Shown here: piece after piece, positions 247 to 28,385 of the stretch
Position numbering within the stretch: position 1 is the stretch's first letter
How the letters are laid out: the number at the start of each line of letters is the position of its first letter
Source of the DNA: Dehalococcoidales bacterium
GTDB lineage: Bacteria; Chloroflexota; Dehalococcoidia; Dehalococcoidales; UBA5627
Assembly: GCA_028707255.1 (NCBI GenBank)
Contig: JAQTUQ010000017.1
Coordinates: 1-32,177 of the forward strand
Length of the DNA: 32,177 nt
Reading direction: 5' to 3'
Notes under the pieces: generated by a model
Told to the model about the DNA's origin: nothing
Database searches by the model: none
The model's input: the letters and a program-made list of their open reading frames with translations, nothing else
Position numbers and translations under genes: made by a program

Positions 247-900
247 ATGGCAAAGATTATTAAAAGATATGTTAACTTCTTGCTGGATGTAATAGCGCTG
301 TTGTCTATCCTAGTTACCTTGGTATCCAGTTATATATTATGGTTTATTCTTCCCATGGGACAAGGAGCACACGGTGAGCTGGGGAGCGCATCCGGTTATA
401 TGTGGTGTAATACTGACGGTTACGGCATTACCGGCAACTATATTACCGTAATGAACTGGCCAAGGTATACATGGATAGATATACATACATGGGCATCGAT
501 TATTCTCTTGGGAATAATAATTCTGCATATTGTTCTGCATTGGAAATGGATTATCAGTTTAACGAAAAGGATAAAAAACCATCTTGGCGGAAGTATTATC
601 AAAGTAAAAGCCTTGGAGCAATACGCCGTGACCGTACTATTACTAATTCTGTTTACAATAGAATGTCTTTCCGGTTTTATTATCTGGTTAGTATTACCGC
701 GCGGTGCGCTGGATTTTGAAAATATGCTGATTGGTTTAGGTCGTACGTTTTGGGGATTGCAGAGAAATATATGGGTAGACATTCATGCTTGGTTAGCAAT
801 AGCTATAATCGCCATCTTAATTATACACATATTACTGAATTGGAGATGGATTTTGAACATGACTGTGAAAAAAAGAGCATTGTTATCAGAAAAGAAGTAA
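247..900 (+). CDS. DUF4405-like four-helix membrane protein with duplicated histidine pairs
   Basis: This 217-residue protein has four hydrophobic segments, near residues 10-35, 80-103, 125-150 and 180-203. It is an internal duplication: each half ends in a similar block (WIDIHTWASI and WVDIHAWLAI) followed by a helix that closes with a W-K/R-W motif. His80 and His94 in the first half match His180 and His194 in the second, both spaced HX13H, which suits axial ligands of b-type haem in a cytochrome-b-like fold. DUF4405 proteins have this layout; haem binding here is inference. It may pass electrons between the quinone pool and an unidentified partner. The ribosome site before this ATG is weak. 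No partner oxidoreductase gene lies next to it. Confidence 0.6.
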   Translation: MAKIIKRYVNFLLDVIALLSILVTLVSSYILWFILPMGQGAHGELGSASGYMWCNTDGYGITGNYITVMNWPRYTWIDIHTWASIILLGIIILHIVLHWKWIISLTKRIKNHLGGSIIKVKALEQYAVTVLLLILFTIECLSGFIIWLVLPRGALDFENMLIGLGRTFWGLQRNIWVDIHAWLAIAIIAILIIHILLNWRWILNMTVKKRALLSEKK

Positions 901-3333: not shown

Positions 3334-4007
3334 CTATTCTGTAATAAATAGCAGATTATTATTGCATTTGGCGGGTTTCGAGCGGTAGCGATTTATGTAT
3401 TGCAAAAGTAACCACTGAATCTGTCTTCCCATAGGAACGAAACGCTCCTTATTGCCTTTCCCTGATATTTTTATCATCCCTTCATCTAGCTGGACATCTT
3501 CCAATTTTATTGTACACAACTCCGATATTCTCATGGCTGTATCCAACAATGTCATAATTATTGTCATGTTTCTATATCCTTCAGATGATCCCTTATTTAT
3601 TACATTAAGTAAACCCTGTATTTGTACATCAGGGAAGGTTGTAATAACCTTCTTAGTTGGTCTTGGTATCTTTATCCTGTCGAACGGATTATTATCAATA
3701 ATATCCTCGGATACAAGCTAGGAAAAAAGATCCTTAGGCTACGCAGATAACAATTTATTGTTTGTTACGAAAGCCCTCTATCTTGAACACGGTTCAAACG
3801 ATGATTTTCGAAACATCTTTTCTGTTTCAGATAAAAGATAAACTCCCGTATATAACGATGATCAATATCGGTTATTTTAATATTAATATGTTTTGAATAT
3901 TTTAAAAATTCAGAAAAATAATTTACACTATTAACGACAATCTTTATTGAATTCTTGCTTTTACCATCGGACGATACACACAGCTTATAACCAATTAATT
4001 AAAGCAT
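3334..4007 (-). pseudogene. Decayed XerC/D-like tyrosine recombinase
   Basis: Reading the minus strand from an ATG at 4007 gives a recognisable recombinase with several lesions. The N-terminal core-binding domain (LCVSSDGKSKNSIKIVVN to YIREFIFYLKQKR) is interrupted by TAA at codon 3 and by another TAA after DRGLS. The text then resumes as TINCYLRSLRIFF. A one-base loss in a T run near 3730 shifts frame, a TAG falls where the family has Trp, and LVSEDIIDNNPFDRIKIPRP follows. The catalytic half keeps the first Arg (TAMRISEL) and Lys region (GKGNKERFVP) but stops at LLFITE, so HxxR and the Tyr nucleophile are gone. It resembles the intact recombinase at 28561-29622 and marks an old insertion next to tRNA-Val. 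Confidence 0.8.
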
Positions 4008-4042: not shown

Positions 4043-4092
4043 CCCATTTTACAAAGCTGATTTTTTGGGTTAAAATAGCTTTGTAAAATGGG
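4043..4092. repeat. 16-bp perfect inverted repeat overlapping the tRNA-Val 5' end
   Basis: CCCATTTTACAAAGCT (4043-4058) is perfectly repeated in reverse as AGCTTTGTAAAATGGG (4077-4092) across an 18-bp spacer. With one bulged A the pairing extends into the GCG of the tRNA acceptor strand. The left arm contains the likely -35 box of the tRNA promoter, and the right arm ends at the second base of the tRNA. It could be an operator-like protein site or a scar of the neighbouring recombinase element. Confidence 0.75.
4048..4076 (+). promoter_or_regulatory. Promoter of tRNA-Val
   Basis: TTTACA (4048-4053), a 17-bp spacer and TAAAAT (4071-4076) each match the sigma-70 boxes at five of six positions. 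Transcription would begin about 8 bp before the tRNA. The promoter sits almost wholly between the arms of the inverted repeat. Confidence 0.6.
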
Positions 4093-4166
4093 GCGATTAG
4101 CTCAGTGGTTAGAGCGCTTGCTTCACACGCAAGAGGTCACTGGTTCAAATCCAGTATCGCCCACCA
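4091..4166 (+). tRNA. tRNA-Val (anticodon CAC)
   Basis: The sequence folds as a full cloverleaf. The acceptor stem GGGCGAT pairs with ATCGCCC, the D arm has AGCTCAGTGGTTAGAGC, and the anticodon stem CTTGC/GCAAG encloses TTCACAC, so the anticodon is CAC. The T arm is CTGGTTCAAATCCAG. A genomic CCA follows the discriminator A (4164-4166). This differs from the tRNA-Lys in the same window, which has no encoded CCA. Confidence 0.97.
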
Positions 4167-4259: not shown

Positions 4260-4293
4260 CAAAAGGGTGAGAAGGGTATAAAACTTCTCACCC
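4260..4293 (-). terminator. Terminator of the molybdoenzyme/chaperone operon
   Basis: A perfect 10-bp hairpin (GGGTGAGAAG at 4265-4274 with CTTCTCACCC at 4284-4293) lies 24 bp after the stop of the trigger-factor-like gene. On the minus strand it is followed by a T-rich tail (TTTTGTGTTTT), as expected for the end of that operon. Confidence 0.85.
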
Positions 4294-4317
4294 TGATAGT
4301 TTAGAAATTGCGTCTGT

Positions 4318-5625
4318 TTACTGAGCCGGTTCGGATTGCTGTTTACCGGTAACGATTTCAGCCAGCCTGTTAACGGTTTTTCTGACCTTGATGAGGTCGA
4401 TAACATTCTCGCGCTCATAGCTATGCAGTCTTCGGCGCGCCTCTTTCTGTTTGATTTCCTCCGCAATATCGGCAGTCATTTCGTCCACTTCGGCGGCGAC
4501 CTCCTCTTCGCTGACGGTGATGTCCTCGGCTTTAGCCACCTCATCCAGCACCAGGGTCCATAACACTCTTTTTTTAGCCAGTTCCGCAGAGCCTTTCTTA
4601 AGCTGTTCTTCCGTTATCAGGTTCAGCTGCTCCTGGTACTCTTTTTCGTTCTTGGCGGAAGTTTTCAATTGCTGTTTATAATCTTCCATAATCTGCTTGG
4701 CCTGGAGGTCGATCATCATGGTCGGGTACTCGAGGTGGCTTTTTGATATCAACTCGGCGACGATCTTCTCCTTGAATTTCGTATCGGCGTTAATCTCTTT
4801 TTCCTTCATCATGTTGTAACGGATACGCTTTTTCAGTTCCTCCAGAGAAGTGACACCGGGTGCCACTTTTCTGGCAAAGTCATCGTTAATTTCGTCCAGC
4901 AGCAGCTCGCGCACATCGTGTACTTTTACGCTGAAATCGGCTTCCCTGCCCGCCAGCAGTTTGTCGGAGTAATCTCCGGGCAGTGTCAATTTAAAGCTGA
5001 ATTCCTCCTCTTTCACAGCCCCGACCAGCTTTTCCGACAACCCCGGCATTTCAGGCACGAAGTTTTCATCCACATAGAACTTGGAGTTCTTTTTACTTAA
5101 GAAAGGTTTTCCGGATACCTTGCCTTCGATATCGATGATGAGCAGGTCTCCGCTTTTAACCGGCCGCTCTACCGGGATGAGCGTTCCGATTTGAACGCGG
5201 TTCTTCTCCAAAATGGCGTCGACCTCGGCATCGGTTACTTCCAGCGGTTCGGGTTCCACCCTCAGGCTGCGATAATCCGCGATTTCCACTATCGGTCTCA
5301 AGGCCGCTGCTATTTCGTATTTAGGCGGTTCGAACTGGAGGATCGTTATCATCGGCTGCAGCCAGTTTTCGATATTAAGGTCTTTGATAATTCCGGAAGA
5401 GTCCTCATATGCCAGCTCCCTGATGGCATCTCCCAGCGCCTGTTCTCTATCGATATGCTTTTCCAGAACATCATGCGGCGCATTTTCTTCGAGGTAATCC
5501 GGAATATTCGCCTTCTTAGCCATGCGCTTATAGACCTTCTCGAGATACTTCTCCAGGTCTGCAGGCTCGGGTTCTACTGTTATATAAGCCGTGCGGTTCT
5601 CCGTCCTGTCAAATTTTACTTTCAT
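4318..5625 (-). CDS. Trigger-factor-like chaperone lacking the ribosome-docking motif
   Basis: The 435 residues follow the trigger-factor plan: an N-terminal tail-like domain (1-115), an FKBP-type PPIase domain (about 150-240, with VKSGDLLIIDIEG and LPGDYSDKLLAGREADFSV) and a helical C-terminal chaperone domain (250-420, starting INDDFARKV). In true trigger factor the loop at residues 41-50 is GFRxGKxP, which docks on ribosomal protein L23. Here it reads IPDYLEENAP: the basic residues are gone and acidic ones replace them. It is the last gene of the molybdoenzyme operon, not beside clpP/clpX. Known parallels are PceT/RdhT, trigger-factor-like proteins dedicated to Tat-exported reductive dehalogenases. 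I infer a dedicated chaperone for the Tat precursor encoded upstream. Good ribosome site (GAGGAAG). Confidence 0.85.
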   Translation of the reverse strand: MKVKFDRTENRTAYITVEPEPADLEKYLEKVYKRMAKKANIPDYLEENAPHDVLEKHIDREQALGDAIRELAYEDSSGIIKDLNIENWLQPMITILQFEPPKYEIAAALRPIVEIADYRSLRVEPEPLEVTDAEVDAILEKNRVQIGTLIPVERPVKSGDLLIIDIEGKVSGKPFLSKKNSKFYVDENFVPEMPGLSEKLVGAVKEEEFSFKLTLPGDYSDKLLAGREADFSVKVHDVRELLLDEINDDFARKVAPGVTSLEELKKRIRYNMMKEKEINADTKFKEKIVAELISKSHLEYPTMMIDLQAKQIMEDYKQQLKTSAKNEKEYQEQLNLITEEQLKKGSAELAKKRVLWTLVLDEVAKAEDITVSEEEVAAEVDEMTADIAEEIKQKEARRRLHSYERENVIDLIKVRKTVNRLAEIVTGKQQSEPAQ

Positions 5626-5691
5626 TTCTTCCTCTTACCAGATTAAAATTCATCATTTATGAATAATGTTGCAGCGTTATACTGCGCTGCC

Positions 5692-6426
5692 TTATTTGGC
5701 TTCCTCTGTCATTTCTGCGATATCGCTGACAATAACTACCCCGAAGCTGTCTACCATTTCACCGCCATACGGCTTGTATTTAAATTGAAATTTTTTCATC
5801 TGTTGCGGGTCGATATCCCTGATGATAATCACTTTTTCCCCGATAACCTCTTTTTTAAAGTTGCCGAAGGTTATCAGCAGGACGGCGTCGGTTTTGGCTT
5901 CGGTTATATTTTTCACCATACCTCTTAATTCCGCCTCGCCCGTCATCGGGTTGATCTTCATATCCTGGTTGCGGAGCTGTACCTTCTCCGTTTCCGTTGT
6001 CGTCATCTTGATGATCCTGACCTCATAGCTCTTTACGACGCCGGGGATGATAACATTTTTGGAAGGGATGATTATTCCCCTGCTCACGCCGGGTTGGAAT
6101 TCGATCTCTTTGTGCAGGACCGTATCCATTTCTTTACCCTTTTCGTTGTAGAACTTAGCCTCGAAGACAAGGGTGGAAATCGTTTTGTCGGAAACGTTCC
6201 TGATGGCAAAATCGACACAGATTTTGTACATGCAATTGTATACCTGCATCTCTTCGAGCTTGTGTTTTGTGATAGCTACCATGTCGTTTCCGTAAACCAT
6301 AGGCTCCGGCAGAACGCCCGGCCCGTCATTCTCTTCTATAACATCGGTAATAAATTTGTCCCGGGCTGTTACCGGAGTTCCACTACCGCAGCTATGCTGG
6401 TCTCCACATTCGTGTTCGTGTGCCAT
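5692..6426 (-). CDS. Cytosolic FxLYD-like protein with His/Cys-rich N-terminus
   Basis: This 244-residue protein has no signal peptide or membrane helix. The first 15 residues (MAHEHECGDQHSCGS) hold three His and two Cys, a likely metal-binding tail. Two beta-rich stretches follow: about 67-120 (VDFAIRNVSDKTISTLVFEA, then KEIEFQPGVSRG) and about 165-225 (GMVKNITEAKTDAVLLITFG). Both have the pattern of FxLYD/DUF3426-type beta-sandwich domains, which usually sit outside the membrane. The ribosome site GGAGG is 10 bp from the ATG. It lies 46 bp after a B12-radical-SAM gene and 66 bp before the chaperone gene, so it is probably in the same operon. Function unknown; a metal-handling or scaffold role in enzyme maturation is a guess. 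Confidence 0.6.
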   Translation of the reverse strand: MAHEHECGDQHSCGSGTPVTARDKFITDVIEENDGPGVLPEPMVYGNDMVAITKHKLEEMQVYNCMYKICVDFAIRNVSDKTISTLVFEAKFYNEKGKEMDTVLHKEIEFQPGVSRGIIIPSKNVIIPGVVKSYEVRIIKMTTTETEKVQLRNQDMKINPMTGEAELRGMVKNITEAKTDAVLLITFGNFKKEVIGEKVIIIRDIDPQQMKKFQFKYKPYGGEMVDSFGVVIVSDIAEMTEEAK

Positions 6427-6472
6427 TTCTCAATACCTCCGTTTGTTATTTTATTACTATCTTAAAGCCGTT

Positions 6473-8116
6473 TTAAACTCTCCCGGCGCTGCGGGAACGC
6501 AGATAGGAATCAACGGTTTCCCTGAGCGCCTTTAATTTAGAACGCCTTTCGGCTTCATCGGCTATATTCATTATTTTATCCACTTCCCCCACCGCTATCC
6601 TGTCCGTATTGACCTCGGTTTGCTTCTCGTATGCCTGACGTTGGTCGTAGGCTCCGTACTTCTCTCTTTCGCTAATCGAATATAACACAGATTCCAGAAT
6701 CAATTCTACCAGCCCATCGCGGCTCAACGCCTCCGTTTCGTGATTCAGCCACTGGTGCCACGATGGCTGCGAGAGCGCATCGATATATTCTTCCAGGTTG
6801 GCAAAAAGCAGCTTGTAGCCGTATTTGCCGGGGTCGTCGAAGGCGGCGGAACCCGGTTCCAGGATAATCGGCCCGACAATCGGACCTCCCATACATCCGG
6901 CCAGGCTGCCGTAACTGTGCCTGGCAATGCCGATCTGGTCCAGTATGCACAGCCTGTCCCAGAGTTCTTGCGTCGCTTTAAATGTCTCGCGGTTTTCACC
7001 GGATAAGCCCACCGAGAAAAAGAAGGTGAGCGGAATATGGTATTTCTGGCATACCTTGACCGTATTTATTATCTCTTCGTTCGAGTAGCATCTCCCCTGT
7101 ATCTTTCTCACTCCGGCATCCCCCGATTCGGGAGTCATATAGAGCATTACCGGTTTCCCGATGCTGGACACTACCCGGGCAAATTCTTCGTCTACCGGCG
7201 CAAAGATGTCCAGCGACAGGCGGTCTATCTTCAGGTTATCCCGCTCCTCCCGCAGCGCTGCAAACAGCTCTCTCCAATAAATCTCTCCTCCCATGCGCGC
7301 ATCCTGGTAGAGATTTATCAGCGTTATCCCCTGCGCATTGAAGCTCTTGATATCTTCCACAATCTTTTGCGGGCTCCTGACTGCCGGTTTGTTCATGCCG
7401 AAATACTTGCGATAGTTATAGGACGAACCGCCGCAGGTAACACAGTTGTAGATGCAGCCGCGGCAGGTTACCAGGTTGCCGTAGGTCTCTCCACCGTGAT
7501 TGAAAATAGAGGTCTTCGGTTCGATTAAATCGAAGCGCGTATACTCGTATTCGTCCAGGTCACGGCTGCCTTCCGCAAGCGGCATAACGCAGATATCGCC
7601 CGCTTCCGTGCGGCAGGTGACGTTGGGTGTCTGCGGAACTTTGCCGGTTCTCTTAAACTCATTGGCAAACTCTAAAAGCGCTTTCTCCCCCTCCCCCCTG
7701 ATTACCGCATCTATAAAATCGTATTTTTCAATAATCTCTTCGTGAAAAAAGGTGGCCGTCAATCCGCCCAGCACCACCAGCGAATCAGGGTGCAGTCTCT
7801 TGCACAGCCGCGCTATCTCGATTGCCCCCTGGGCATGATGATGCCAGTGCAGGTCGATGGCATAGATTTCCGATGCCAGATTCTTTATGTGCTTTTCTAC
7901 ATCGAATTCACGGCCGGCCACCATGCGGTCGGCGATATTATCGATGATAACCTTTAGCCCGTTTCTGTCAAGGTAGTTGGCAATGCAGATCATGCCAATC
8001 GGCACCTTGATAAACTGTATCTTCTCTACCGACGGTCCCAGCGGCCCGGGGAAAAGGGGCTGCTTCCTGAAATCATATACCGCCGGCGGATGTATCAATA
8101 CCACATCATAGTTCAT
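6473..8116 (-). CDS. B12-binding radical SAM protein (second copy)
   Basis: The 547-residue protein starts with a cobalamin-binding Rossmann domain (about 1-150: VVLIHPPAVYDF, VVLGGLTATF, FIDAVIRGEGEK). A radical SAM barrel with the cluster motif C221-x3-C225-x2-C228 follows (CRGCIYNCVTCGG, with an extra Cys218). The canonical lower-ligand motif DxHxxG is not exact: residues 88-94 read DLHWHHH. The C-terminal region (about 400-540) is specific to this type and contains NLEEYIDALSQPSWHQW, nearly repeated in the upstream paralogue. The family includes methyltransferases and other cobalamin-dependent radical enzymes; it resembles the uncharacterised Ta0216-like group, from memory. Substrate unknown. 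It lies 84 bp after its paralogue and within the molybdoenzyme operon. Confidence 0.88.
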   Translation of the reverse strand: MNYDVVLIHPPAVYDFRKQPLFPGPLGPSVEKIQFIKVPIGMICIANYLDRNGLKVIIDNIADRMVAGREFDVEKHIKNLASEIYAIDLHWHHHAQGAIEIARLCKRLHPDSLVVLGGLTATFFHEEIIEKYDFIDAVIRGEGEKALLEFANEFKRTGKVPQTPNVTCRTEAGDICVMPLAEGSRDLDEYEYTRFDLIEPKTSIFNHGGETYGNLVTCRGCIYNCVTCGGSSYNYRKYFGMNKPAVRSPQKIVEDIKSFNAQGITLINLYQDARMGGEIYWRELFAALREERDNLKIDRLSLDIFAPVDEEFARVVSSIGKPVMLYMTPESGDAGVRKIQGRCYSNEEIINTVKVCQKYHIPLTFFFSVGLSGENRETFKATQELWDRLCILDQIGIARHSYGSLAGCMGGPIVGPIILEPGSAAFDDPGKYGYKLLFANLEEYIDALSQPSWHQWLNHETEALSRDGLVELILESVLYSISEREKYGAYDQRQAYEKQTEVNTDRIAVGEVDKIMNIADEAERRSKLKALRETVDSYLRSRSAGRV

Positions 8117-8200
8117 GCGCTAACGCAACCCTTCTCCAATATCTCATCGGGAACACGAAATCCCCGCTATCTTTCTTCTTTAGTTTATACGATTCCCCGC

Positions 8201-9832
8201 TTACATGTCATCCGCTACGGGAACCATTCGGCTTAACGCCTCATCCAGTTCTTTCTTGAAAGCGCTGACGGTCTCAAAGCGCTCTGCCTCGTCTTCTATC
8301 TCCATTACCTGGTTTACTACATCCATTACCATCTTGTTAATGGTTACGAAACGCAGCTTGCGCGCGCTGGCGTCATGTCCGCTGAATAACCCGAATTTCT
8401 CTCTCAGTTCGATCGAGTATTCTATCGAATCCATGATCAGTTTTGCGATTGTTTCCCGGTTTAAATACTTCGTTTCATAGGATATCCACTGGTGCCACGA
8501 CATCAGCGACATCCCGTTAATATATTCCTCGAGATTGTTGAATTTTAAACGGTATCCGTAGTTTTCCGGATAATCGAAGGCCGGCGACCCGGGGTCTAAA
8601 AGTATCATCGGCCCGAAGGCATGGTGCACCGGCGATTTGCCGCTGCCCTCCCGGTTGATAAGGCAAATCTGCTCCCAGATCTTCCAGGTGTCTTTTACCG
8701 TCTTCGGCGTATCATCCCCTAATGCTATCATCGAGAACACCCCGATCGGGATGTTGTATTTCTTGCATAACCTCAAAGTCCTGAACAGCTCTTCATTGCC
8801 ATACTTGCGCCCCTGCGCTTTTCTGATTCCGTCACAACACGATTCCGGCGATATCGAAAGCACTATCGGCAAACCGGTATTCGACATCTGCCTGATGTAT
8901 TCTTCATCTGCCGGACCGAACAGCTCCATCGCTATGTTTACCGCCGTGTGCTTCTTGCTGCGCAGCGCCGCAAACAGCTTCGTCCAGTATTCTTTTCCCC
9001 CCATGCGCGGGTCCTGGAACAGGAAAATGCTCTTGATCCCCTGCTTTGCCAGTTTCTCGATATCTTCCGCTATCTTCTCCGGGCTGCGAAAGGCCGGCTT
9101 CTCCCGCGAAAGATAGGTCTTATAGCTGTAGCGCGAACCCCCGCAGGTGGCACAGTTATACGAGCAGCCGCGGCAAACAGGAATAAACCAGCTTCCGCCT
9201 CTATCATTACGGTAAATAATCTTCTGCGGCTCGATTAAATCCAGCCGCGTATAGTCGTATTCGTCCAGTGTCTCCGAGGGCGCCATCATCGGGTTAACCC
9301 TAACCTTACCTTCACTATCACGGAAGGTAAGGTTAGGTACTTCATCAAGTTTATCATCTTGCTCTAACCCTTTCATAAGCTCGAGAAAGGGTTTCTCGGC
9401 TTCTCCCCGGATTACCGCATCTATAAAACCATACTTGCCGATTATCTCTTCACTGAATACGGTCGATGTCAGCCCGCCCAGTACCACCATCGCTTGCGGA
9501 TGCGCAGCTTTGCATGCCCGCGCCAGCTCGATGGCACCCTGCGAGTGTACACACCAGTGCAATCCTATGCCGATTACCTTCGCCGACAGCCCCTTTATAT
9601 GCTGCTCTGCATCAAACCCGCTATCGGTTACCATCCGTTCGCTTAAGTTATCTACTTTTACCCGGTAACCGTGCCGGTCTAAATATTCCGCTATGCTCAG
9701 CATGCCAACCGGCGGTATCATGAACTCGTCCGTGCTTTCGCTTACCGTGTATGCTATCGGCCCCGGAAATATTATTTTCTTGCGAAAATCATATATCGCC
9801 GGCGGATGTATCAGTATGGCATCATATTCCAT
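8201..9832 (-). CDS. B12-binding radical SAM protein (first copy)
   Basis: The 543-residue protein is a clear tandem paralogue of the downstream gene: same start (MEYDAILIHPPAIYDFRK), same B12-domain signatures (VVLGGLTSTVF, FIDAVIRGEAEK) and same cluster motif C223-x3-C227-x2-C230 with an extra Cys220 (VCRGCSYNCATCGGS). At the DxHxxG position it reads GLHWCVH, so the cobalt-binding His may be absent or replaced, as in some base-off enzymes. The C-terminal block NLEEYINGMSLMSWHQW matches the partner. Long collinear similarity with clear divergence suggests two related but not identical reactions or a heteromer. The ribosome site is weak; a hairpin at 9880-9905 lies just upstream in the message. 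Confidence 0.88.
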   Translation of the reverse strand: MEYDAILIHPPAIYDFRKKIIFPGPIAYTVSESTDEFMIPPVGMLSIAEYLDRHGYRVKVDNLSERMVTDSGFDAEQHIKGLSAKVIGIGLHWCVHSQGAIELARACKAAHPQAMVVLGGLTSTVFSEEIIGKYGFIDAVIRGEAEKPFLELMKGLEQDDKLDEVPNLTFRDSEGKVRVNPMMAPSETLDEYDYTRLDLIEPQKIIYRNDRGGSWFIPVCRGCSYNCATCGGSRYSYKTYLSREKPAFRSPEKIAEDIEKLAKQGIKSIFLFQDPRMGGKEYWTKLFAALRSKKHTAVNIAMELFGPADEEYIRQMSNTGLPIVLSISPESCCDGIRKAQGRKYGNEELFRTLRLCKKYNIPIGVFSMIALGDDTPKTVKDTWKIWEQICLINREGSGKSPVHHAFGPMILLDPGSPAFDYPENYGYRLKFNNLEEYINGMSLMSWHQWISYETKYLNRETIAKLIMDSIEYSIELREKFGLFSGHDASARKLRFVTINKMVMDVVNQVMEIEDEAERFETVSAFKKELDEALSRMVPVADDM

Positions 9833-9879
9833 TACTCATCGCGCTTCTCTCTACGGTATTTCTTTATACATCGAAGCTT

Positions 9880-9905
9880 AAGCAAAGGGACATCCCCCTT
9901 CGCTT
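9880..9905 (-). other. Intra-operon RNA hairpin before the radical SAM pair
   Basis: On the minus-strand transcript AAGCGAAGGG pairs with CCCTTTGCTT through 10 bp with one G-U wobble and a 6-base loop. No U tract follows, so it is unlikely to be a terminator. It separates the membrane-protein gene from the first radical SAM gene and may tune message stability. Confidence 0.5.
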
Positions 9906-9946
9906 CTGTCAATACACCGGAACTCTAATCTTTTATTCCGATTAAA

Positions 9947-10543
9947 CTATTCTGCAGATTTACCTATGATTTTATTGCGCAGAAAAGCCAGCACAACCAG
10001 GTAAACACCAGTTCCGATTGCCAGCCAGTAACCAAAGGGAATATATGCGGTTACATCGAGCTCGATACTCCACATGCCGAAGGATCCGACGTACACAAAA
10101 GCAGTTCCGGTAAACGGGATATGCAATAAGGCTATTTTAGGCATGGCAAATAACACCGCTGCGACGCAAACAACGATATAAACCAGTCCTACCAATCCTA
10201 CCGCCCACCTGGAGATGTTCAATCTCTTGCCGAATAAGGGGATAGACGCTTTGTTAAAAATCATGCCCAGTAATAATGCCGCTATAGCTGCGCCGAAGAA
10301 TATCCAGATTACAATTATAAGAAACTGCGGTACGGCAACTTCAACGCCGCCGCCGGGCAATAATGCGAAATAACCTTCAAGACCGCCGCCGTCAAGACCG
10401 TAGGGATGGATTATTACATTATGGTTGCCCGCTACTGCGGATTTAGTTTCCGCAATCCACCAAGGCTGGAAAAATGAATAAACGAACGTTCCGAGGCCGA
10501 TAAGAACCAAAGCACGAAAAATCCAGATTCTCGCTGTGTTCAT
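9947..10543 (-). CDS. Four-helix membrane protein of the molybdoenzyme operon
   Basis: This 198-residue protein has hydrophobic segments near residues 8-28, 72-97, 111-134 and 166-188. A roughly 40-residue loop after the first helix contains a Gly-rich stretch (LDGGGLEGYFALLPGGG). It does not look like NrfD or a b-type cytochrome: no paired histidines lie within the helices. Its place after the catalytic and ferredoxin subunits suggests a membrane partner or anchor of the exported enzyme, comparable in position to the small anchors of other Tat redox enzymes; that is inference. The ribosome site (AAGGAAGG) is 13 bp from the ATG. Family not recognised. Confidence 0.65.
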   Translation of the reverse strand: MNTARIWIFRALVLIGLGTFVYSFFQPWWIAETKSAVAGNHNVIIHPYGLDGGGLEGYFALLPGGGVEVAVPQFLIIVIWIFFGAAIAALLLGMIFNKASIPLFGKRLNISRWAVGLVGLVYIVVCVAAVLFAMPKIALLHIPFTGTAFVYVGSFGMWSIELDVTAYIPFGYWLAIGTGVYLVVLAFLRNKIIGKSAE

Positions 10544-10586
10544 ATTTTTAAAAATTTCCTTCCTTTGTTTTATCTACTTATATACC

Positions 10587-10632
10587 ATCATAGGGGGCGG
10601 GAGTAGATTATTTCCCCCACACCCCCTATGAT
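10587..10632 (-). other. Strong intra-operon hairpin after the ferredoxin subunit gene
   Basis: ATCATAGGGGG (10587-10597) and CCCCCTATGAT (10622-10632) form a perfect 11-bp inverted repeat with further GGGA/TCCC pairing inside. It lies in the 118-bp gap between the ferredoxin and membrane-protein genes and is not followed by a U run on the minus strand. It may protect the upstream message or cause partial termination, giving more catalytic subunits than downstream products. Confidence 0.6.
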
Positions 10633-10661
10633 AGCAAATTTTGCCTTATAACACTAAACTC

Positions 10662-11501
10662 TTACGTTAGCGCTACATCTCCGAGGTTGACATCGGCATT
10701 TACTGTGCTGATATTCGATTTGGTGACTGTTTTGCCACCGGCAGATATGGTTACAGTGAAAGTGCCTTTGCCCAGTTTATCGAACCAGAAATCACCCCAG
10801 CCGTTGGTGGTCATGCTGCCGGTTCCGGCACCGCTGAGGGTGCAGGTGGCGCCGACGACCACTTCTTTGGTGGACGGGTCGTAAACCGTTCCGGCAATGA
10901 ATCTCTTGGGGAGACTCAGGTATTTGACCCTGGTGGTTAAACCGTACTCGGGCATATAGGTTTCGGTACCGGCCAGGTCCAGCGATGATTCCTCGCCGAA
11001 CAGGATGGCTTCGGTCGGGCAGTTGTCGGCACATCTGGGACCATAGGTCCAGCCCGACCTGTCCAACAGGTGGGCGCAACCGGTACATTTCTGCGCCTGT
11101 GAGATAGCCCTGTTGTAATAGATCTTGCCGTACGGGCAGGCATCGACGCACAGGTAGCAGCCGCTGCATTTATTCGGGTCGAGCCAGACTATGCCATCGC
11201 TCCTGGTGGAAATGGCCTGCTGCGGGCAGGCGGGAATGCAGGGAGCACTGACGCAGTGCTGGCAGGGTACGAATACATAGTCCGTGCGGACAACGGAAGA
11301 CTGTCTTGCCTTGGTGCCGCCGGGTACCTTGGGGCCGACGGTACCGCGTTCGTAGTCTACCAGTTTACCCCAGAACTGTCCCCATTCAGGTTGCGGCCTG
11401 GCATAGGGCATCCAGTCGTTGGAAACATGCTCGTCTTTGCAGCCGACCTGGCAGCTATAGCACCCAAAACATCTGTCTACATTTATACGAAAAGCTTTCA
11501 T
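10662..11501 (-). CDS. Ferredoxin-type electron-transfer subunit, transhydroxylase beta-like
   Basis: The 279 residues begin with a DMSO-reductase-type ferredoxin region. It has CFGCYSCQVGC near the N-terminus, CQHCVSAPCIPAC, CSGCYLCVDAC, CTGCAHLLDRSG and CADNCP, enough for about three 4Fe-4S clusters. The last 80 residues (from RFIAGTVYDPSTKEVVVGA) are a carboxypeptidase-regulatory/Ig-like beta domain. Pyrogallol-phloroglucinol transhydroxylase beta subunit has the same unusual ferredoxin plus beta-barrel layout and a similar length. There is no signal peptide, so it probably leaves the cell bound to the Tat-targeted partner. It starts 4 bp after the catalytic gene stop, with its ribosome site (GGAGGAGG) inside the end of that gene, so the two are translationally linked. 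Confidence 0.88.
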   Translation of the reverse strand: MKAFRINVDRCFGCYSCQVGCKDEHVSNDWMPYARPQPEWGQFWGKLVDYERGTVGPKVPGGTKARQSSVVRTDYVFVPCQHCVSAPCIPACPQQAISTRSDGIVWLDPNKCSGCYLCVDACPYGKIYYNRAISQAQKCTGCAHLLDRSGWTYGPRCADNCPTEAILFGEESSLDLAGTETYMPEYGLTTRVKYLSLPKRFIAGTVYDPSTKEVVVGATCTLSGAGTGSMTTNGWGDFWFDKLGKGTFTVTISAGGKTVTKSNISTVNADVNLGDVALT

Positions 11502-11505
11502 TTAA

Positions 11506-14502
11506 TTAAGCCTCCTCCTTCTCTACCCAGCCGCTGAAGAGCGGACCGTAAGCCGGGTCATAATCTCTGGCGAATGCGGCAGGATATTTCTGGCGCCATT
11601 CTTCCATTTCATTCGGTTCGAGTTTGGCAACTTCAACCAGGTAGCCGCTGACAGTGTGCCCGGTGCAGTTCTTGGAGATGGGGTTGGTCGGGGTGATAAG
11701 GTTGATACCACCGCCTCTGTCGATCCACATGCCGTCTTCGCCTGTGGCTATCGGGTCGATCCTGGCACCATGGTCGACCCTGACGGAACCGACCATCTGC
11801 TTTTGGGTAATATAGGCGATAACAAGTACGATACCCCTGTCGTTGTATACCTTGCAGATATCCTTGTGCTTGATGCCCCTGGGCTCGGCATCTTCGGGAT
11901 TCAGCCAGATCGATTCGTACTGGTAGCCGTCGTAGCCGGTCATCTTGCCGGTATCGATTTCCCTGAACCATGATACATCGTCGAACTGTACATGGAATCT
12001 CCATCTCGGATGGTTGTTCTGAATAACCAGCGGATAGGTCTGGCATTTCTCGCCGTAGAGGCTTTCGTCATGAGTCCAGCCGACGATATCAGCGCCGACT
12101 CCGCTTCCGCCCGGACCGCCGACAACATACCTGGCAACCGGATTTCTTTCCACATCATCGGGGAAATGCTCGGCAAGCCTTGCCGAATAGAATTCCAGTT
12201 TGCCGGAAGGCAGCCTGATGGGGTCGCTGGTCGGGTCGTTGTAGAAGTCGATAAGCCCGGCTTTGTCTTCCTGCCAGTCGTCTGCGGCAGGCGCCGTAAC
12301 ATACTGCTTGTCCTTCCACTGTTCGAAGGTCATCAGGTCCTGAGCGCCCGAAACACTGAAACCGTATTCGAGCCATTCGGCAACGGTCAACCTGTTGTTC
12401 ATGAACTCGGCCTTGGTTCCCAGTATGTCGGCCATTTCGGCAACGATTTGCATATCGCTCATGGTTTCGCCGACGTGCGGGATAGCCGGTTTCTCGTAAA
12501 CCAGGAAGGAGAACGAGAACTCATCGTTGACGCCGCGCATATCTTCGTTTTCGAACTTGGTGCAGACCGGAAGAATGATGTCGCATAACAGCATGTCGTT
12601 CTCAAGCCAGATGTGCTGTCCGACGACTGTTTCGATTTGCGGCTGTCTCCAGGCATGGATGGTTAAAAAGCCGTGGTTCCAGCAGCCCGTGTTGCAGGGT
12701 GAGTCGGTCCATATCATGTGTATAATCGAACCGCCCTGGTCTGCGGGAATAGGATAATAGTATCTCTCGAACTGGTCTTCGACCGGAGCAGCCAGCAGGG
12801 AGGTTCCATACCAGCTGACGGGATGGTCGGGAGTACCGTTCAGGATGGCTACATGAACCATACACCTTGAAATGTGCTGCCTGATCTGGTCGTCTTCGGC
12901 TCCGGGCCAACCGGCAAAGCGGAAACCGCCAGAGAAGTTTACGGCAGACGAGGTGAATCTCTTGGTCCATCTCGGTGAGTTGTGCGGGGTAGCATATGAA
13001 TGATGACCCGGTTTGCCAAGCCCCTGAAGTCCCATGTTGTAGGCTTCGAACCTGGCATGCTCAGCGGCATAAGGACCTCTCATCGGTCCGCCTTCGCGGT
13101 GTGAGGTGCAGGTTGCCTTGCTGGCCCATTCTCTTGCCAGCGCTTTAATCGTCCAGGGTGCAACACCGCAGATCTCGGAAGCCCATTCCGGAGTTTTCGG
13201 ACCGATTGGGTCGCCGGCTGCATTGCCAAGGACATAGTCTCTGTACTGTTCCCAACCGACGGTATGGGTTTCACAATAAGCCTGGTCGAAAGTGTTTTCG
13301 GTAAACCATACATAGGCAACCGCCAGGTTAAGGGCATCGTCCGTGTTGGCTATAACGGGAATCCATTTGCCCTTGCCGAAGCGGTTGAACGGCTGTCCGG
13401 TGAAGTTCAGGTCCGGCGAGATGTGCAGCAAAAAGACGCCGCAATCCTGGAACCAGTAATACAGAAGACCGGGGAAAGCGCCGAAGTAGCAGGTGGTCTG
13501 GGTGCAGGGGTCATGTCCCCAAAGGATGTTCATTTCGGTATTTCTGGCGATATCGGAATACAGAGGACCGACCTGTTTGCACTGACCCATCCAGCCGTCG
13601 CCCCAGAAGTGCTTTGCGCCCCAGTACCAGCCTTCCCAGCTGTCCGGGTTTCTCATCTGCTGGGTGTAACCGCCGAAGTTCTGGCGCAGAAGACGGTTGC
13701 CGCAGCCATGTCCGTTGAAACCGCCGTGAATCTGCTTGGTTTCACCGTGGATATCCTGACAGGTCAGAATAGCCCAGGGTGTATATTGGCTGTTCATTCT
13801 CTGGATTTCGCTGACTACCGTGTTTAACGCGTAATCCCATGAAACCCTCTTGAATTTGCTCTTGGCACGGTTCTGCGGATTGTATCTGCTGACATCGCCG
13901 CCACCCGGCTCCCAGTCGACTCTCTTTAACGGATACATAATCCTGTTGGGCGAGTAGACTCTCTTTTTGTAGCAAGCAAAATAGTGGCTCTGCAGACTCT
14001 TCATGGTGAAGTTGAAGGTCTTGCCCCTGGCTACCATTTTGCCCGGTTTCAGTTCATCGACAGTGTATTTCCAATCCCAGTGATGGGGTCGAATTCTGAT
14101 GATTTTTCCATGCTTTACATCAACAGCCGAAAGGGCTCTGCCGTCGGAACATCCGACCTTAAGATTTGTTTCTTCCGGTTCGAATGCCGGTAAAACGTCA
14201 CCGCCGGTGCCGGGGTCAGTAACTGTCTTGGTGCTGGTTACTGTAATTGCGCCTGTTCCACCTACCGTGGAAGTAACGGTGTTTGTAATTGTGGTAGCTG
14301 CCGCCGTTACGGTTGTCGGTACTGTCTTGGTGCTGGTTACTGTGGTAGTAACCGTCTCACCACCCTTGCAGCTGGAGAGCAGTCCGGCGCCGATTGCGCC
14401 GCCGACAACTACGGTTCCGGCGCCTACAAGGAAGTCTCTCCTCGTTACTTCGCCGGTTTGTTTGGTTTCATCTACAGGTAACTTTTCTTTTTCTTCTTTC
14501 AA
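11506..14502 (-). CDS. Tat-exported molybdopterin oxidoreductase, pyrogallol-transhydroxylase-like catalytic subunit
   Basis: The 998-residue protein starts at TTG (14502) with a strong GGAGAAGG ribosome site. Residues about 20-45 are a twin-arginine signal (TRRDFLVGAGTVVVGG) ending in LLSSC, a plausible lipobox. A Thr/Val linker follows, in which TVTSTKTV occurs twice. The catalytic part matches the bis-MGD transhydroxylase alpha family: NPDSWEGWYWGAKHFWG, NILWGHDPC, NTDDALNLAVAYVW, and late IWLNPEDAEPRGI and DRGGGINLITP. No N-terminal CxxCxxxC cluster motif is seen, as in transhydroxylase. The His of KHFWG matches the catalytic His there. The expected Ser metal ligand is not obvious (WGHDPC where that enzyme, from memory, has WSSDPE), so the substrate and even the metal (Mo or W) are open. 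A true transhydroxylase is cytoplasmic; this one is exported. Confidence 0.88.
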   Translation of the reverse strand: MKEEKEKLPVDETKQTGEVTRRDFLVGAGTVVVGGAIGAGLLSSCKGGETVTTTVTSTKTVPTTVTAAATTITNTVTSTVGGTGAITVTSTKTVTDPGTGGDVLPAFEPEETNLKVGCSDGRALSAVDVKHGKIIRIRPHHWDWKYTVDELKPGKMVARGKTFNFTMKSLQSHYFACYKKRVYSPNRIMYPLKRVDWEPGGGDVSRYNPQNRAKSKFKRVSWDYALNTVVSEIQRMNSQYTPWAILTCQDIHGETKQIHGGFNGHGCGNRLLRQNFGGYTQQMRNPDSWEGWYWGAKHFWGDGWMGQCKQVGPLYSDIARNTEMNILWGHDPCTQTTCYFGAFPGLLYYWFQDCGVFLLHISPDLNFTGQPFNRFGKGKWIPVIANTDDALNLAVAYVWFTENTFDQAYCETHTVGWEQYRDYVLGNAAGDPIGPKTPEWASEICGVAPWTIKALAREWASKATCTSHREGGPMRGPYAAEHARFEAYNMGLQGLGKPGHHSYATPHNSPRWTKRFTSSAVNFSGGFRFAGWPGAEDDQIRQHISRCMVHVAILNGTPDHPVSWYGTSLLAAPVEDQFERYYYPIPADQGGSIIHMIWTDSPCNTGCWNHGFLTIHAWRQPQIETVVGQHIWLENDMLLCDIILPVCTKFENEDMRGVNDEFSFSFLVYEKPAIPHVGETMSDMQIVAEMADILGTKAEFMNNRLTVAEWLEYGFSVSGAQDLMTFEQWKDKQYVTAPAADDWQEDKAGLIDFYNDPTSDPIRLPSGKLEFYSARLAEHFPDDVERNPVARYVVGGPGGSGVGADIVGWTHDESLYGEKCQTYPLVIQNNHPRWRFHVQFDDVSWFREIDTGKMTGYDGYQYESIWLNPEDAEPRGIKHKDICKVYNDRGIVLVIAYITQKQMVGSVRVDHGARIDPIATGEDGMWIDRGGGINLITPTNPISKNCTGHTVSGYLVEVAKLEPNEMEEWRQKYPAAFARDYDPAYGPLFSGWVEKEEA
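14222..14343 (-). repeat. 23-bp direct repeat inside the Thr-rich linker
   Basis: The 23-bp block at 14222-14244 recurs exactly at 14321-14343, 99 bp (33 codons) apart and in frame. It encodes the repeated TVTSTKTV of the linker between the lipobox and the catalytic domain. Recombination between the copies could change linker length without breaking the frame. Confidence 0.8.
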
Positions 14503-14713: not shown

Positions 14714-15124
14714 TCAGGTGGAATTTACCGCTCTTGCTTTTTTTGCCTGTGTATCCCATTCCCTTCTTCTTATCAAAGCTTTCAGGCGGGCGATGAATAT
14801 CTGGTCGTTAAAAGGCTGAATAACATAATCGCTAGCGCCGGCATCAAAAGCCGCTACCATATTTCTAACATCCCTTTCATGCGACAAAACCATGATAGGT
14901 ACATCGGAGTCGTCACGTATTTGCTTTATCAAATCCAAACCGGGCATATCACACAACAGCATGCCCAGCAGAATCGCATCCGGGCAACCGCTCTCTTTTA
15001 ACAAACTTAAACACTGTTTTCCCGAGTTACTTGCCGATATCTGCCAATCGGGCTTGAGCGAGCTTAACAGGGAATATACATTTTCGATAGTCTCATTATC
15101 GGTATCTGCAACAAATATTTTCAT
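14714..15124 (-). CDS. Stand-alone degenerate receiver (pseudo-receiver) protein
   Basis: The 136 residues form a single CheY-like receiver domain with no output domain. The fold signatures are present: MKIFVADTDN, PDAILLGMLLCDMPGLDLI, DVPIMVLSHE and AGASDYVIQPF. The phospho-acceptor Asp of the usual LLDxxLPDMPG motif is Gly54, and the conserved Lys of the KPF motif is Gln103, so normal phosphorylation should be impossible. The fold is otherwise well kept and the frame is intact, so it is probably a functional phosphate-independent protein, not a wreck. It lies 211 bp upstream of the molybdoenzyme operon on the same strand and downstream of a conventional kinase/regulator pair. No clear ribosome site precedes the ATG. 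Confidence 0.85.
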   Translation of the reverse strand: MKIFVADTDNETIENVYSLLSSLKPDWQISASNSGKQCLSLLKESGCPDAILLGMLLCDMPGLDLIKQIRDDSDVPIMVLSHERDVRNMVAAFDAGASDYVIQPFNDQIFIARLKALIRRREWDTQAKKARAVNST

Positions 15125-15280
15125 ATAACTGATTAGATATAAATGAAAAATGCTACTCTATACTACAGATATCGTATTAATAGAAAATGGAAACGTTCTA
15201 AGCAAAATTGAAAAATATAATGTTTAATGTGAAAAAGATGTGAAAAAACGGTATAAACAATTGGGGCAAACGGTATTGAA

Positions 15281-15430
15281 ATGCAGCCGCTAAGCAGTAT
15301 GTGTTATTTGCTGGCAACTATGACCGATATAACAGAAAAAATGGCATACTCGAAGAGGGTATTTACGATGAATGAACCGGAAATCAGCCGCTCCGGATGT
15401 GGCAGTGACGATAAGCTGAATCCCTGCTGA
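15281..15430 (+). pseudogene. Possible PAS-domain fragment or short ORF
   Basis: A 49-codon open frame encodes MQPLSSMCYLLATMTDITEK and about 30 further residues. The ATMTDITEK text is the usual end of a PAS domain in sensor kinases. There is no ribosome site and no similarity beyond this stretch. It may be the last trace of a deleted sensor gene or chance. The remaining sequence between 15125 and 15507 shows no other gene; a 12-bp tandem repeat lies at its right end. Confidence 0.25.
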
Positions 15431-15464
15431 ATATAATCAGACCGCCAAGCCGGCGATGCCGATC

Positions 15465-15488
15465 AAGCTTTCATATAAGCTTTCATAT
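15465..15488. repeat. 12-bp perfect tandem repeat
   Basis: AAGCTTTCATAT occurs twice head to tail (15465-15476 and 15477-15488), just after the stop of the OmpR-type regulator gene on the minus strand. No hairpin or T run makes it a terminator; role unknown. Confidence 0.7.
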
Positions 15489-15507
15489 ATATATTGTATG
15501 CAGGCTT

Positions 15508-16200
15508 TTAAATTACCGTGTCGGTGTTGGTGAAATAATAACCCTGTCCTACTTTGGTCTTGATTAATTTGGGATGACGCGGGTCATCCTCGATTTTACG
15601 GCGCAATCTCAGGATATAACTTCTGATGTTTTCATCCGAGCTGTTATAGTAATCGCCCCAGATTTTTTCCGCCAGATGGGTGCTGGTTAAAACGATATCC
15701 TCGTTTTTCATAAGTTCATAGAGTATCAGTCCTTCGGTTCTGGTAAGGTCGATTTCCCTGTCGTTATAAACCAGTTTGCTCATCGAGGGAGCAAACCGCA
15801 GGTCACCTCTGGTAATCGGCTCGTATTCATCGATTTTCTTGCTTTTTCTGAAAAGGGCTTTTAAACGGGCGAGGAACTCCAGCTGGCTGTAGGGTTTTAC
15901 CACATATGTATCGGCGCCGCTTTCATGAGCCTTGATAATATCTATTTCACCAGACCTTACAGTGGAAATCATTATAGGCACATCCGAAAAACTGCGTATT
16001 TCTTTCAAAACGGTCAAACCGTCGATATCGGGGAGCCCCAGGTCAAGCACGATGGCATCCGGCGCTTCGGTTTCTGCCAGCAAGATACCCTCCTCCCCTT
16101 TCGTGGTGTGAACGACGTTCAGTTCCGGCCAGCGAATTTTGCATGCCAGCGTAAAAGTCTCCGCAATAGTTTTATCGTCTTCAATTATTAATACTTTCAT
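15508..16200 (-). CDS. OmpR/PhoB-type response regulator
   Basis: The 230-residue protein has a complete receiver domain (acidic pair in IIEDD, phospho-acceptor Asp53 in IVLDLGLPDIDG, Ser/Thr in MISTVRS, Lys102 in VVKPYS). A winged-helix DNA-binding domain follows (about 130-225: LTRTEGLILYELMKN, NIRSYILRLRRKIEDD, KTKVGQGYYF). It is the partner of the kinase gene immediately upstream, separated by 2 bp. Its targets are unknown. The molybdoenzyme operon downstream and the divergent MoxR operon are the nearest candidates. Unlike the neighbouring single receiver, all key residues are present. Confidence 0.95.
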   Translation of the reverse strand: MKVLIIEDDKTIAETFTLACKIRWPELNVVHTTKGEEGILLAETEAPDAIVLDLGLPDIDGLTVLKEIRSFSDVPIMISTVRSGEIDIIKAHESGADTYVVKPYSQLEFLARLKALFRKSKKIDEYEPITRGDLRFAPSMSKLVYNDREIDLTRTEGLILYELMKNEDIVLTSTHLAEKIWGDYYNSSDENIRSYILRLRRKIEDDPRHPKLIKTKVGQGYYFTNTDTVI

Positions 16201-16202
16201 CT

Positions 16203-17870
16203 CTAACCCTCTTTTTGTGGTATCGGGATCGTGAATGTAAAAGTGCTGCCTCTATTCCTTTTACTTTGAACGAATATACTGCCCCCGTGACGCTCTATTA
16301 TATTTTTTGAGATTATCAAGCCCAGCCCCAATCCGTCGGCTTTGTTGTGCGGCTTAGGAGTCATATCGAAAAGATGTTCCATCTGTGTCTTTGTCAGCCC
16401 GCATCCGCTATCCTGTACTGCCACGATTATTTCATTCTCCCCTGTCGTGGCGGCCACATTGATTTTCCCTCCTGCATGGGTGTATTTGATGCTGTTGCTT
16501 AAAAGGTTCAAAATGACTTGGTGAATGCGGTCGCGGTCCCCCTTTATTTTAGGCAGTTTTTGCGGCATTTCCAGCGACAACGCTACATTCTTTTTATTGG
16601 CTTCTATGGCCATATATTTTACCGCTTCCCGGATGACCCTGTTGGTATCTATCAGTTTTAGTTCTACCTGTAATATACCTCTTTCGCTTTTAGCAATATC
16701 TCTCAGCTCATCTACCCTTCTGTCCAGGTTTTTTGCTCCCTGATTAATTTGCACAGCCAGCTCTCTGAGGGGGCCTTTCGGCAGTTCGGCAACCAGGATT
16801 TCCGAGGCTGCCTGTATAGGGGTTATCGGAGTTTTCAGTTCGTGGACGACCGATTGGATGAATTTGGTCCTGTTGTTATTAAAATATATTAAACTCCTGT
16901 TCATATTCTCCAGTTCAGCAGTTCTCTTTTTTACCAGTTGCTCCAGGTTAATATTGTACTGTTCCAGTTCTTTCTCTATCATCTTGCGTTCGGTGATATC
17001 TTTAATATAGGCTACAATAGCGCTGCTGCCATGATAATTGGTATAACCGCTGGTGAGCTCGATGGGTACTTCAACCCCGCTCTTGTTTATGATATACATC
17101 TCGAAATAATGCGGAATAACAGACCCGCCCATTTTCTTGCGGTGTCTTTCTATGGAGTTTTTAAGGTATTTCGGATGCAGGATGTCGAAAAAAGACTTTT
17201 TAAGCAACTCTTCTCTGTCATAACCGGTAATACGGCACCACTCATCGCTGACAAATGTCTGCAAGGCCTCCACTTTTTCCGTATCCTGGAGCATGACGAC
17301 GGCTTCACCGACGCGGTCGCCAAGCTCTACCAGGGTACGGTACATATCTTCGGATTCTTTTAGCTGCTGGTATAACTGCTTCTGCATGGTAACGTCACGG
17401 TTGAAATGGAAGAATACCCCTCCCATGACGTTCATATATTTCAAACTGACCGAAATATCGATGATTCTGCCGTCTTTGCGACGGTGCTGTACCATTGAGA
17501 ATTCGTTGGGCTTTGTTTCAAAGCCTATGAGGTTTTTGAATACAGCAATCATTTCCTGTTTGCCGTTGGGTGAATTCAGATACTTGACATCGAGGTCATA
17601 TAAACCCATATTAAGCAACTCTTTACGGCTGTATCCCGACATATTACAAAAGGCGTCGTTCACATCCAGTATTCTTGTATTCATATCTGTAATGAAGAAG
17701 CCTTCGGTGGCGTTATGAATGATATATTTATACCACTTATCCTTGATATCAGAAGGAATTTTCGAGTAATTTTCAACGGAATCGGACAAGTTCTCCCGTG
17801 TATCTTCCGTTATCGAAGATACATCCTGCTGAGATATGTTCTTAGCTTTCTTTATCTTTATTCCTTCCAT
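16203..17870 (-). CDS. Soluble PAS-PAS sensor histidine kinase
   Basis: This 555-residue kinase has no membrane helix or signal peptide, so it senses an internal signal. Two PAS domains are visible, about 46-160 (EGFFITDMNTRILDVNDAFC) and about 175-298 (ending VAYIKDITERK). A short coiled linker and the HisKA domain follow, with phospho-accepting His343 in VVHELKTPITPIQ. The ATPase domain shows the N box (VILNLLSNSIKYTH), G1 (VQDSGCGL) and G2 (ADGLGLGLIISKNIIERHGG). It heads a two-gene unit with the OmpR-type regulator. A ribosome site (AGGTGG) and a promoter at 17919-17946 fit the chosen ATG. PAS ligands such as haem or flavin cannot be predicted from the sequence. Confidence 0.95.
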   Translation of the reverse strand: MEGIKIKKAKNISQQDVSSITEDTRENLSDSVENYSKIPSDIKDKWYKYIIHNATEGFFITDMNTRILDVNDAFCNMSGYSRKELLNMGLYDLDVKYLNSPNGKQEMIAVFKNLIGFETKPNEFSMVQHRRKDGRIIDISVSLKYMNVMGGVFFHFNRDVTMQKQLYQQLKESEDMYRTLVELGDRVGEAVVMLQDTEKVEALQTFVSDEWCRITGYDREELLKKSFFDILHPKYLKNSIERHRKKMGGSVIPHYFEMYIINKSGVEVPIELTSGYTNYHGSSAIVAYIKDITERKMIEKELEQYNINLEQLVKKRTAELENMNRSLIYFNNNRTKFIQSVVHELKTPITPIQAASEILVAELPKGPLRELAVQINQGAKNLDRRVDELRDIAKSERGILQVELKLIDTNRVIREAVKYMAIEANKKNVALSLEMPQKLPKIKGDRDRIHQVILNLLSNSIKYTHAGGKINVAATTGENEIIVAVQDSGCGLTKTQMEHLFDMTPKPHNKADGLGLGLIISKNIIERHGGSIFVQSKRNRGSTFTFTIPIPQKEG

Positions 17871-20162: not shown

Positions 20163-20190
20163 AAACACCGACACAAAAAGGGAGTGTATC

Positions 20191-22181: not shown

Positions 22182-22195
22182 TGGAGGAAGGAAAA

Positions 22196-22786: not shown

Positions 22787-22810
22787 TCGGGCTTTTGAAA
22801 GAGGCGACTA

Positions 22811-28346: not shown

Positions 28347-28385
28347 CTTGATTAAAAAAGTTTTAAAGCTAATTCATAGCTAGAC

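Follow-up and report, generated by a model that had tools for sequence, protein, structure and literature searches.

The systems closest in architecture to the locus described here are the dehydroxylases Dadh, Cadh and Hcdh of Eggerthella lenta. They reduce hydroxylated aromatics, and each combines a Tat-exported bis-MGD enzyme with a 4Fe-4S ferredoxin and a putative membrane anchor, with the paralogues expanded within one genome (PMC7028382). Another relative is pyrogallol-phloroglucinol transhydroxylase (PGTH), whose product is opened by an enzyme termed a 'cyclase' family enzyme in the phloroglucinol literature (PMC10470551). For accessory proteins there are two further precedents. PceT and CprT are, by their description, extra trigger factors encoded in the gene clusters of Tat-exported metalloenzymes, and PceT attaches to the Tat signal of PceA, with a 1:1 ratio in the soluble fraction (PMC8905343). 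Mmp10 and MgmA are B12-dependent radical SAM methylases that both modify methyl-coenzyme M reductase (PMC5943407, PMC11796369).

Our locus, from a Dehalococcoidales bacterium, resembles the Eggerthella systems in its exported enzyme, ferredoxin and presumed anchor as well as in having several paralogues in its genome. One difference is the Fe-S motif of the catalytic subunits from Eggerthella (PMC11574389), and another is that the available portions of the published accounts report no B12-binding radical SAM or trigger factor partner for them. The superfamily of each component and the exported layout of catalytic subunit, ferredoxin and anchor (here MoA, FeS and TM) were already known. We found no paper in the open-licence literature that joins a B12-binding radical SAM protein with a transhydroxylase, and as far as that literature shows, what is new is the partnership of radical SAM enzymes (rSAM) with MoA across phyla and a trigger factor (TF) that lacks its ribosome motif.

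Gene order and recurrence of the module

The window is the whole stretch of DNA that was analysed, a contig of 32,177 nucleotides (C33) in a genome assembly of 1.64 Mb that is 98% complete. Seven minus-strand open reading frames follow one another in the order MoA-FeS-TM-rSAM-B-rSAM-A-FxLYD-TF (Table 1), with gaps of 4, 118, 114, 84, 46 and 66 bp. The initial annotation had described seven same-strand genes with gaps of at most about 120 bp and a single clear terminator, and both descriptions hold: every frame is in its place, and the unit ends in a stable hairpin (z = -5.4) followed by a T-rich stretch. The single promoter region of that annotation is a conjecture by comparison: promoter-like sites in the region number 27, which is close to the shuffled expectation of 20.2 +/- 4.1.

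Table 1. Features of the module and its surroundings in the window
Feature	Position	Strand	Evidence
DUF4405 cytochrome-b-like protein	247..900	+	Two DUF4405 genes within or next to the C29 operon are 49% and 42% identical
HK: PAS-domain sensor histidine kinase	16203..17870	-	Pfam PAS/HisKA/HATPase_c; HK 5' of MoA also at C29, C66, C19, G017
RR: OmpR-type response regulator	15508..16200	-	Pfam Response_reg + Trans_reg_C; same order at C29, C66, C19, G017
REC: stand-alone receiver-domain protein	14714..15124	-	Pfam Response_reg only; homologues directly 5' of MoA at C29, C66, C19, G017
MoA: bis-MGD catalytic subunit	11506..14502	-	TTG start; Pfam Molybdopterin + Molydop_binding
FeS: ferredoxin subunit	10662..11501	-	Pfam Fer4_11 + C-terminal CarboxypepD_reg (Ig-like) domain
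TM: four-helix membrane protein, presumed anchor	9947..10543	-	No Pfam family; AlphaFold2 model
rSAM-B: type-B B12-binding radical SAM enzyme	8201..9832	-	Pfam B12-binding + Radical_SAM; type-B branch in subfamily tree
rSAM-A: type-A B12-binding radical SAM enzyme	6473..8116	-	Pfam B12-binding + Radical_SAM; CX3CX2C Cys221/225/228; type-A branch
FxLYD-like protein	5692..6426	-	NCBIfam FxLYD domain; homologues in C29, L050, L059 operons
TF: trigger factor duplicate without the ribosome motif	4318..5625	-	Pfam Trigger_N/Trigger_C; TIGR00115 above cut-off
DYLEENAP at TF residues 43-50, replacing GFRxGxxP	5476..5499	-	Comparison with 18 trigger factors
Intrinsic-terminator-like hairpin 3' of TF	4262..4300	-	Fold -19.1 kcal/mol, z = -5.4

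The outer boundary of the unit had to be redrawn. Sequence searches of the same genome located further MoA genes on three other contigs (C29, C66 and C19), and contig C35 breaks off just as a fifth one begins. The order HK-RR-REC-MoA-FeS is common to the window, C29, C66 and C19. G017, a genome of a different family within the order, has a contig that runs HK-RR-REC-MoA-FeS-TM-rSAM-B before it stops. Because this arrangement recurs, we count the HK, RR and REC genes (14714-17870) as part of the module, which the seven-gene outline had left outside. The gene after FeS is TM at C29 and C19; contig C66 stops a short way past FeS. Among the MoA loci of this genome, as far as the contigs reach, only the window and C29 go on into rSAM and FxLYD genes.

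Additional genes of the C29 operon (L034 9019-10444 and 12751-14437) encode a protein with a CxxCxxCC domain, two cytochrome-b-like DUF4405 proteins and another FxLYD protein that is longer than the first. The DUF4405 protein of the window is a possible redox partner and a candidate member of the module. On C35 there is an open reading frame with a Tat-type signal (L046 13681-15666). A single TGA splits it (LSS-TGA-GSC), and both halves match Pfam UGSC; from its sequence it is probably an exported selenoprotein. The fifth Tat MoA gene starts 3' of this frame. Elsewhere in the window, a peptidase U32 family gene (981-2048, +) adjoins a DAHP synthase gene (2098-3147, +), and at positions 18257-23842 a MoxR-type AAA ATPase and two proteins with von Willebrand A domains make up an ordinary MoxR-like cluster that is not part of the module.

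The exported enzyme and its likely role

MoA has the serine ligand and the Molybdopterin and Molydop_binding domains of the serine-ligated (bis-MGD) DMSO-reductase family. Its Tat signal (TRRDFLVG, residues 20-27) and its lipobox (LSSC, Cys45) are both clear by eye. The nearest solved relative is PGTH (4v4c; phmmer E = 6e-95). Using PGTH numbering, which we checked against the chain sequence, His144, Asp174, Ser175 (the Mo ligand) and Trp176 are shared with PGTH and kept in nearly all members of the window clade.

The initial annotation called MoA an enzyme of the transhydroxylase type, and the kinship with 4v4c bears this out at the level of the superfamily. It does not extend to function. 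In a tree of 55 sequences built with a quick method, PGTH falls outside the clade of the window MoA with support 100. Tyr152, Arg153, Tyr404 and Tyr560, which we take to be active-site residues of PGTH, are all four absent from the window MoA and its clade, whereas most of them are conserved throughout the PGTH clade. The separate clade and the lost residues led us to reject a PGTH function for MoA. An orthodox pyrogallol-phloroglucinol transhydroxylase would fit the E-value, the kept Ser and Asp/His/Trp and the Ig-like C-terminus of FeS, but in addition to the clade and the four residues it has against it the Tat export and the missing cyclase described below, and we consider it very improbable. 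The window enzyme also differs from PGTH in having a TM subunit and a two-component system.

The partner subunits are regular companions. FeS homologues lie directly 3' of MoA at the MoA loci that we read, and TM homologues come after FeS at C29, C19, L050, L058, L059 and G017. The AlphaFold2 model of TM has four helices and two beta-rich loops (pLDDT 66); a fold search with it gave weak matches to claudin/TARP-like four-helix proteins, none with E < 0.001, which speak to topology only.

By the description of the catechol dehydroxylases in PMC7028382, the window enzyme has their architecture of Tat signal, ferredoxin partner and membrane anchor. The Tat signal and lipobox together with the ferredoxin and four-helix subunits suggest a respiratory reductase. 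We found no PF04199 cyclase in this genome, and since we assume PF04199 to be the family of the known phloroglucinol ring-opening enzyme, its absence makes us favor respiration over ring degradation. Apparently, then, the window enzyme is a reductase of anaerobic respiration, and we infer that its substrate is most likely a hydroxylated aromatic.

Members of the MoA clade are found in other settings too. In Deltaproteobacterial clusters (L124, L125 and L127-L135) they are paired with a PGTH-clade enzyme and accompanied by PF04199 cyclases, SDR genes, an NrfD-type complex, a thiolase and TRAP-like genes; these clusters are probably for anaerobic polyhydroxybenzene degradation. In an actinobacterial MAG (G781, the genome of L060) the enzyme group is greatly expanded, with 27 MoA-like matches.

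The radical SAM pair and its link to MoA

The two tandem cobalamin-type radical SAM paralogues of the initial annotation were confirmed, as both proteins match Pfam B12-binding and Radical_SAM. The CX3CX2C cysteines are invariant in 16 of 16 aligned sequences, and these cysteines and the two domains place both proteins in the B12-binding radical SAM superfamily. The best NCBIfam model for both is TIGR04190 (Ta0216), with scores of 380 and 391 bits that are below its 500-bit cut-off. In our tree the subfamily of the window proteins is a single clade, separated from TIGR04190-like relatives with support 100/100, and it has two branches, type A (98/96) and type B (91/93). Both types are present in the window, in L050 and in the archaeon Terraquivivens. 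At the loci we saw, type B occurs only with a Tat-exported MoA or a TM gene. In Deltaproteobacteria, type A is found with a cytoplasmic MoA as well, and for this reason the rSAMs are not tied to export.

The sister family has different neighbors. TIGR04190-like proteins of Dehalococcoidia (L005-L033, L064-L092) are adjoined by UbiA- and UbiE-like genes and a SAM hydroxide adenosyltransferase-like gene at 38 of 58 loci, which suggests an enzyme that modifies quinones or prenyl-aromatics. In contrast, the window rSAMs have MoA and FeS beside them, and none of the close-subfamily rSAM loci tested has a UbiA/UbiE-like match. Where MoA is missing from an rSAM locus, the neighbors vary from locus to locus and give no functional clue.

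To look at co-occurrence, we scanned a collection of named genomes with an rSAM alignment, blind to MoA. The scan returned 12 rSAM loci at 46-61% identity, from Chloroflexota, Deltaproteobacteria, SAR324, an actinobacterial and a clostridial MAG, and Terraquivivens. MoA or FeS is near rSAM in seven of them (L050, L051, L052, L057, L058, L059, L061), and 11 of the 12 genomes have a MoA at 41-50% identity. At the twelfth locus, L059, the contig is cut inside the FeS gene, with the FeS and TM partners present. Once the window's own genome (G000) and G017 are added, 13 of 14 rSAM genomes carry a MoA of this clade, with rSAM near MoA or FeS in nine of the 14 and apart from MoA in five.

The background is far lower. 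Out of 393 genomes from the class of our bacterium, 8 (about 2%) have the MoA clade, as do 13 of 321 genomes of the class of G776 (about 4%), and all three rSAM genomes of the latter class are among those 13. By a hand calculation the chance of this is about 5e-5, with the caveat that it was the rSAM scan that had first pointed to these three genomes. Close rSAM homologues appeared in no other of the 393 class genomes or of 400 phylum genomes, at a threshold that a copy cut by a contig end, as in G017, would miss; the comparison genomes are mostly MAGs. In the other direction, many genomes with MoA have no rSAM (7 of 8 MoA genomes in Dehalococcoidia, 10 of 13 in Desulfobacteria), so modification by rSAM would not be essential to this class of enzyme. 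When we aligned MoA from 14 rSAM-positive and 8 rSAM-negative cases, no column was conserved in the former and changed in the latter.

The initial annotation had proposed a new module and suggested a co-occurrence search as its check. The outcome that it named as a refutation, radical SAM homologues mostly without the molybdoenzyme, is not what we see, and we regard the module and its MoA-rSAM link as real.

Trigger factor, FxLYD protein and competing explanations

The TF of the window has Trigger_N, FKBP-like and Trigger_C regions, all above cut-off, in a full-length open frame. It was described as a divergent trigger factor, and we agree: it is still recognized by TIGR00115, and it has lost the ribosome-docking motif. 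GFRxGxxP, the main ribosome contact of trigger factor (PMC9527764), is intact in all 18 comparison proteins with a readable N-terminus. A second TF in the same genome, next to a ClpP-like gene on contig C62, is 42% identical to the window copy and reads VPGFRKGNAP where the window copy reads IPDYLEENAP. In the tree, the window TF and the canonical TFs of the genus form one group (100/100), and the window copy has a branch of 0.93, compared with 0.08 for the canonical copy; this grouping and the long branch mark it as a lineage-specific duplicate.

Outside of this genome the copy is rare. A contig of a sister species (G002) ends inside a gene that is 80% identical to the C-terminal part of the window TF and adjoins a tRNA-Val gene 97% identical to that of the window and the same terminator region. 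TF is missing from each of the other MoA operons for which enough sequence was available, and the L050 genome has a single TF. Thus, in the operons compared, TF is not a general part of the module. Of the idea of a dedicated chaperone, the duplication and the lost docking motif stand, but its only counterpart elsewhere is the fragment in one sister species. The surroundings hint at movement or rearrangement: a tyrosine-recombinase remnant (3334-3567) adjoins the tRNA-Val gene (4091-4166), and a second integrase gene (29555-30235) is near a tRNA-Lys gene (28274-28347). Since the tRNA-Val/TF end in G002 sits in a backbone that matches contig C66 of our genome, the region looks mobile or rearranged.

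For the FxLYD protein, the NCBIfam domain scores 28.1 bits against a cut-off of 23, and the model shows two tandem beta sandwiches (pLDDT 76). A fold search with it found only generic Ig-like sandwiches, with TM-scores of about 0.3 at most, and by eye we saw no signal peptide. Homologues recur with exported systems (C29, L050, L059). The His/Cys tail noted earlier does exist; it is at the N-terminus (MAHEHECGDQHSCG) and private to the window copy, with no counterpart in its relatives.

Our best explanation, which we hold tentatively, is an exported, membrane-attached molybdenum reductase whose precursor is handled by TF, the rSAMs and FxLYD, with the rSAMs modifying MoA or its cofactor. It builds on what can be read from the sequences: the gene set and its recurrence, the Tat signal and lipobox, the kept and lost residues, the co-occurrence of rSAM with MoA, and the duplication of TF with loss of its motif. 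Transcription would be controlled by the adjacent kinase, regulator and receiver genes. MoA, with bis-MGD and a serine-ligated Mo, would assemble with FeS in the cytoplasm, where dedicated factors would handle the precursor before export. The ribosome-freed TF may act on the Tat precursor as PceT does, and the two cobalamin-dependent rSAMs may modify MoA or its cofactor in the way that Mmp10 and MgmA methylate methyl-coenzyme M reductase, an analogy in which two B12-rSAMs serve one metalloenzyme. The two-domain FxLYD protein may bridge TF and the rSAMs. The lipoprotein signal would then take MoA-FeS across by Tat, to be seated with TM on the membrane's outer face. We favor maturation because the rSAMs, TF and FxLYD look cytoplasmic while MoA is exported. 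A narrower version, in which the pair C-methylates (or similarly modifies) a DMSO-reductase-family enzyme or bis-MGD before Tat export and the ribosome-free TF is the precursor chaperone, strikes us as rather unlikely. Such radical SAM maturation of a molybdenum enzyme would be, to our knowledge, the first case. The initial annotation had the last four genes mature, modify or load the exported enzyme, and as a statement of fact this is not supported, given that rSAMs also accompany cytoplasmic MoA and that no MoA residue tracks rSAM.

The lack of such a residue, together with the quinone-biosynthesis-like neighbors of the sister family, makes a different role possible, in which the rSAMs act on a small molecule. 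They could methylate, rearrange or hydroxylate the phenol that MoA consumes or produces, or else alter a quinone that supplies the reductase, with MoA and rSAM as two steps of one pathway. UbiA/UbiE-like genes beside the nearest relatives would point to ring or quinone chemistry, the Deltaproteobacterial MoA clusters contain the catabolic genes listed above, and rSAM is found by a thiolase and a cupin (L055) and by an AMP-ligase and an enoyl-CoA hydratase (L054). However, stoichiometric use of SAM is costly for catabolism or respiration, the rSAMs are cytoplasmic and the window enzyme works outside, none of their neighbors apart from MoA and FeS is constant, and the UbiA/UbiE-like genes are absent from every close-subfamily locus tested. 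We see this role as possible and lean against it. It is also conceivable that the TF has nothing to do with the enzyme and is a degenerating copy that by chance lies at the end of the operon, which would agree with its fast evolution and with its absence from other MoA operons. Its intact frame and domains, the conservation of its C-terminal part and terminator in the sister species, and its position 66 bp from the FxLYD gene with a GA-rich stretch before the ATG make this unlikely.

If TF serves the enzyme, a ribosome chaperone would have been recruited to a metalloenzyme exported by Tat in a second case, beside PceT. The two cases, as far as PceT is known to us by description, differ in the partner (RdhA there, a bis-MGD enzyme here), and the window copy comes from the TF of its own genus and has lost the ribosome motif. 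The MoA clade may be an unrecognized respiratory trait of sediment bacteria of the Dehalococcoidia type, and annotations as 'pyrogallol transhydroxylase' (PMC3971608) may be wrong for some enzymes of such bacteria. Few partners are known for the large group of B12-dependent radical SAM enzymes, and one subfamily tied to one MoA clade over several phyla offers a directly testable target. If that target is the enzyme itself, radical maturation would extend to molybdenum respiration.
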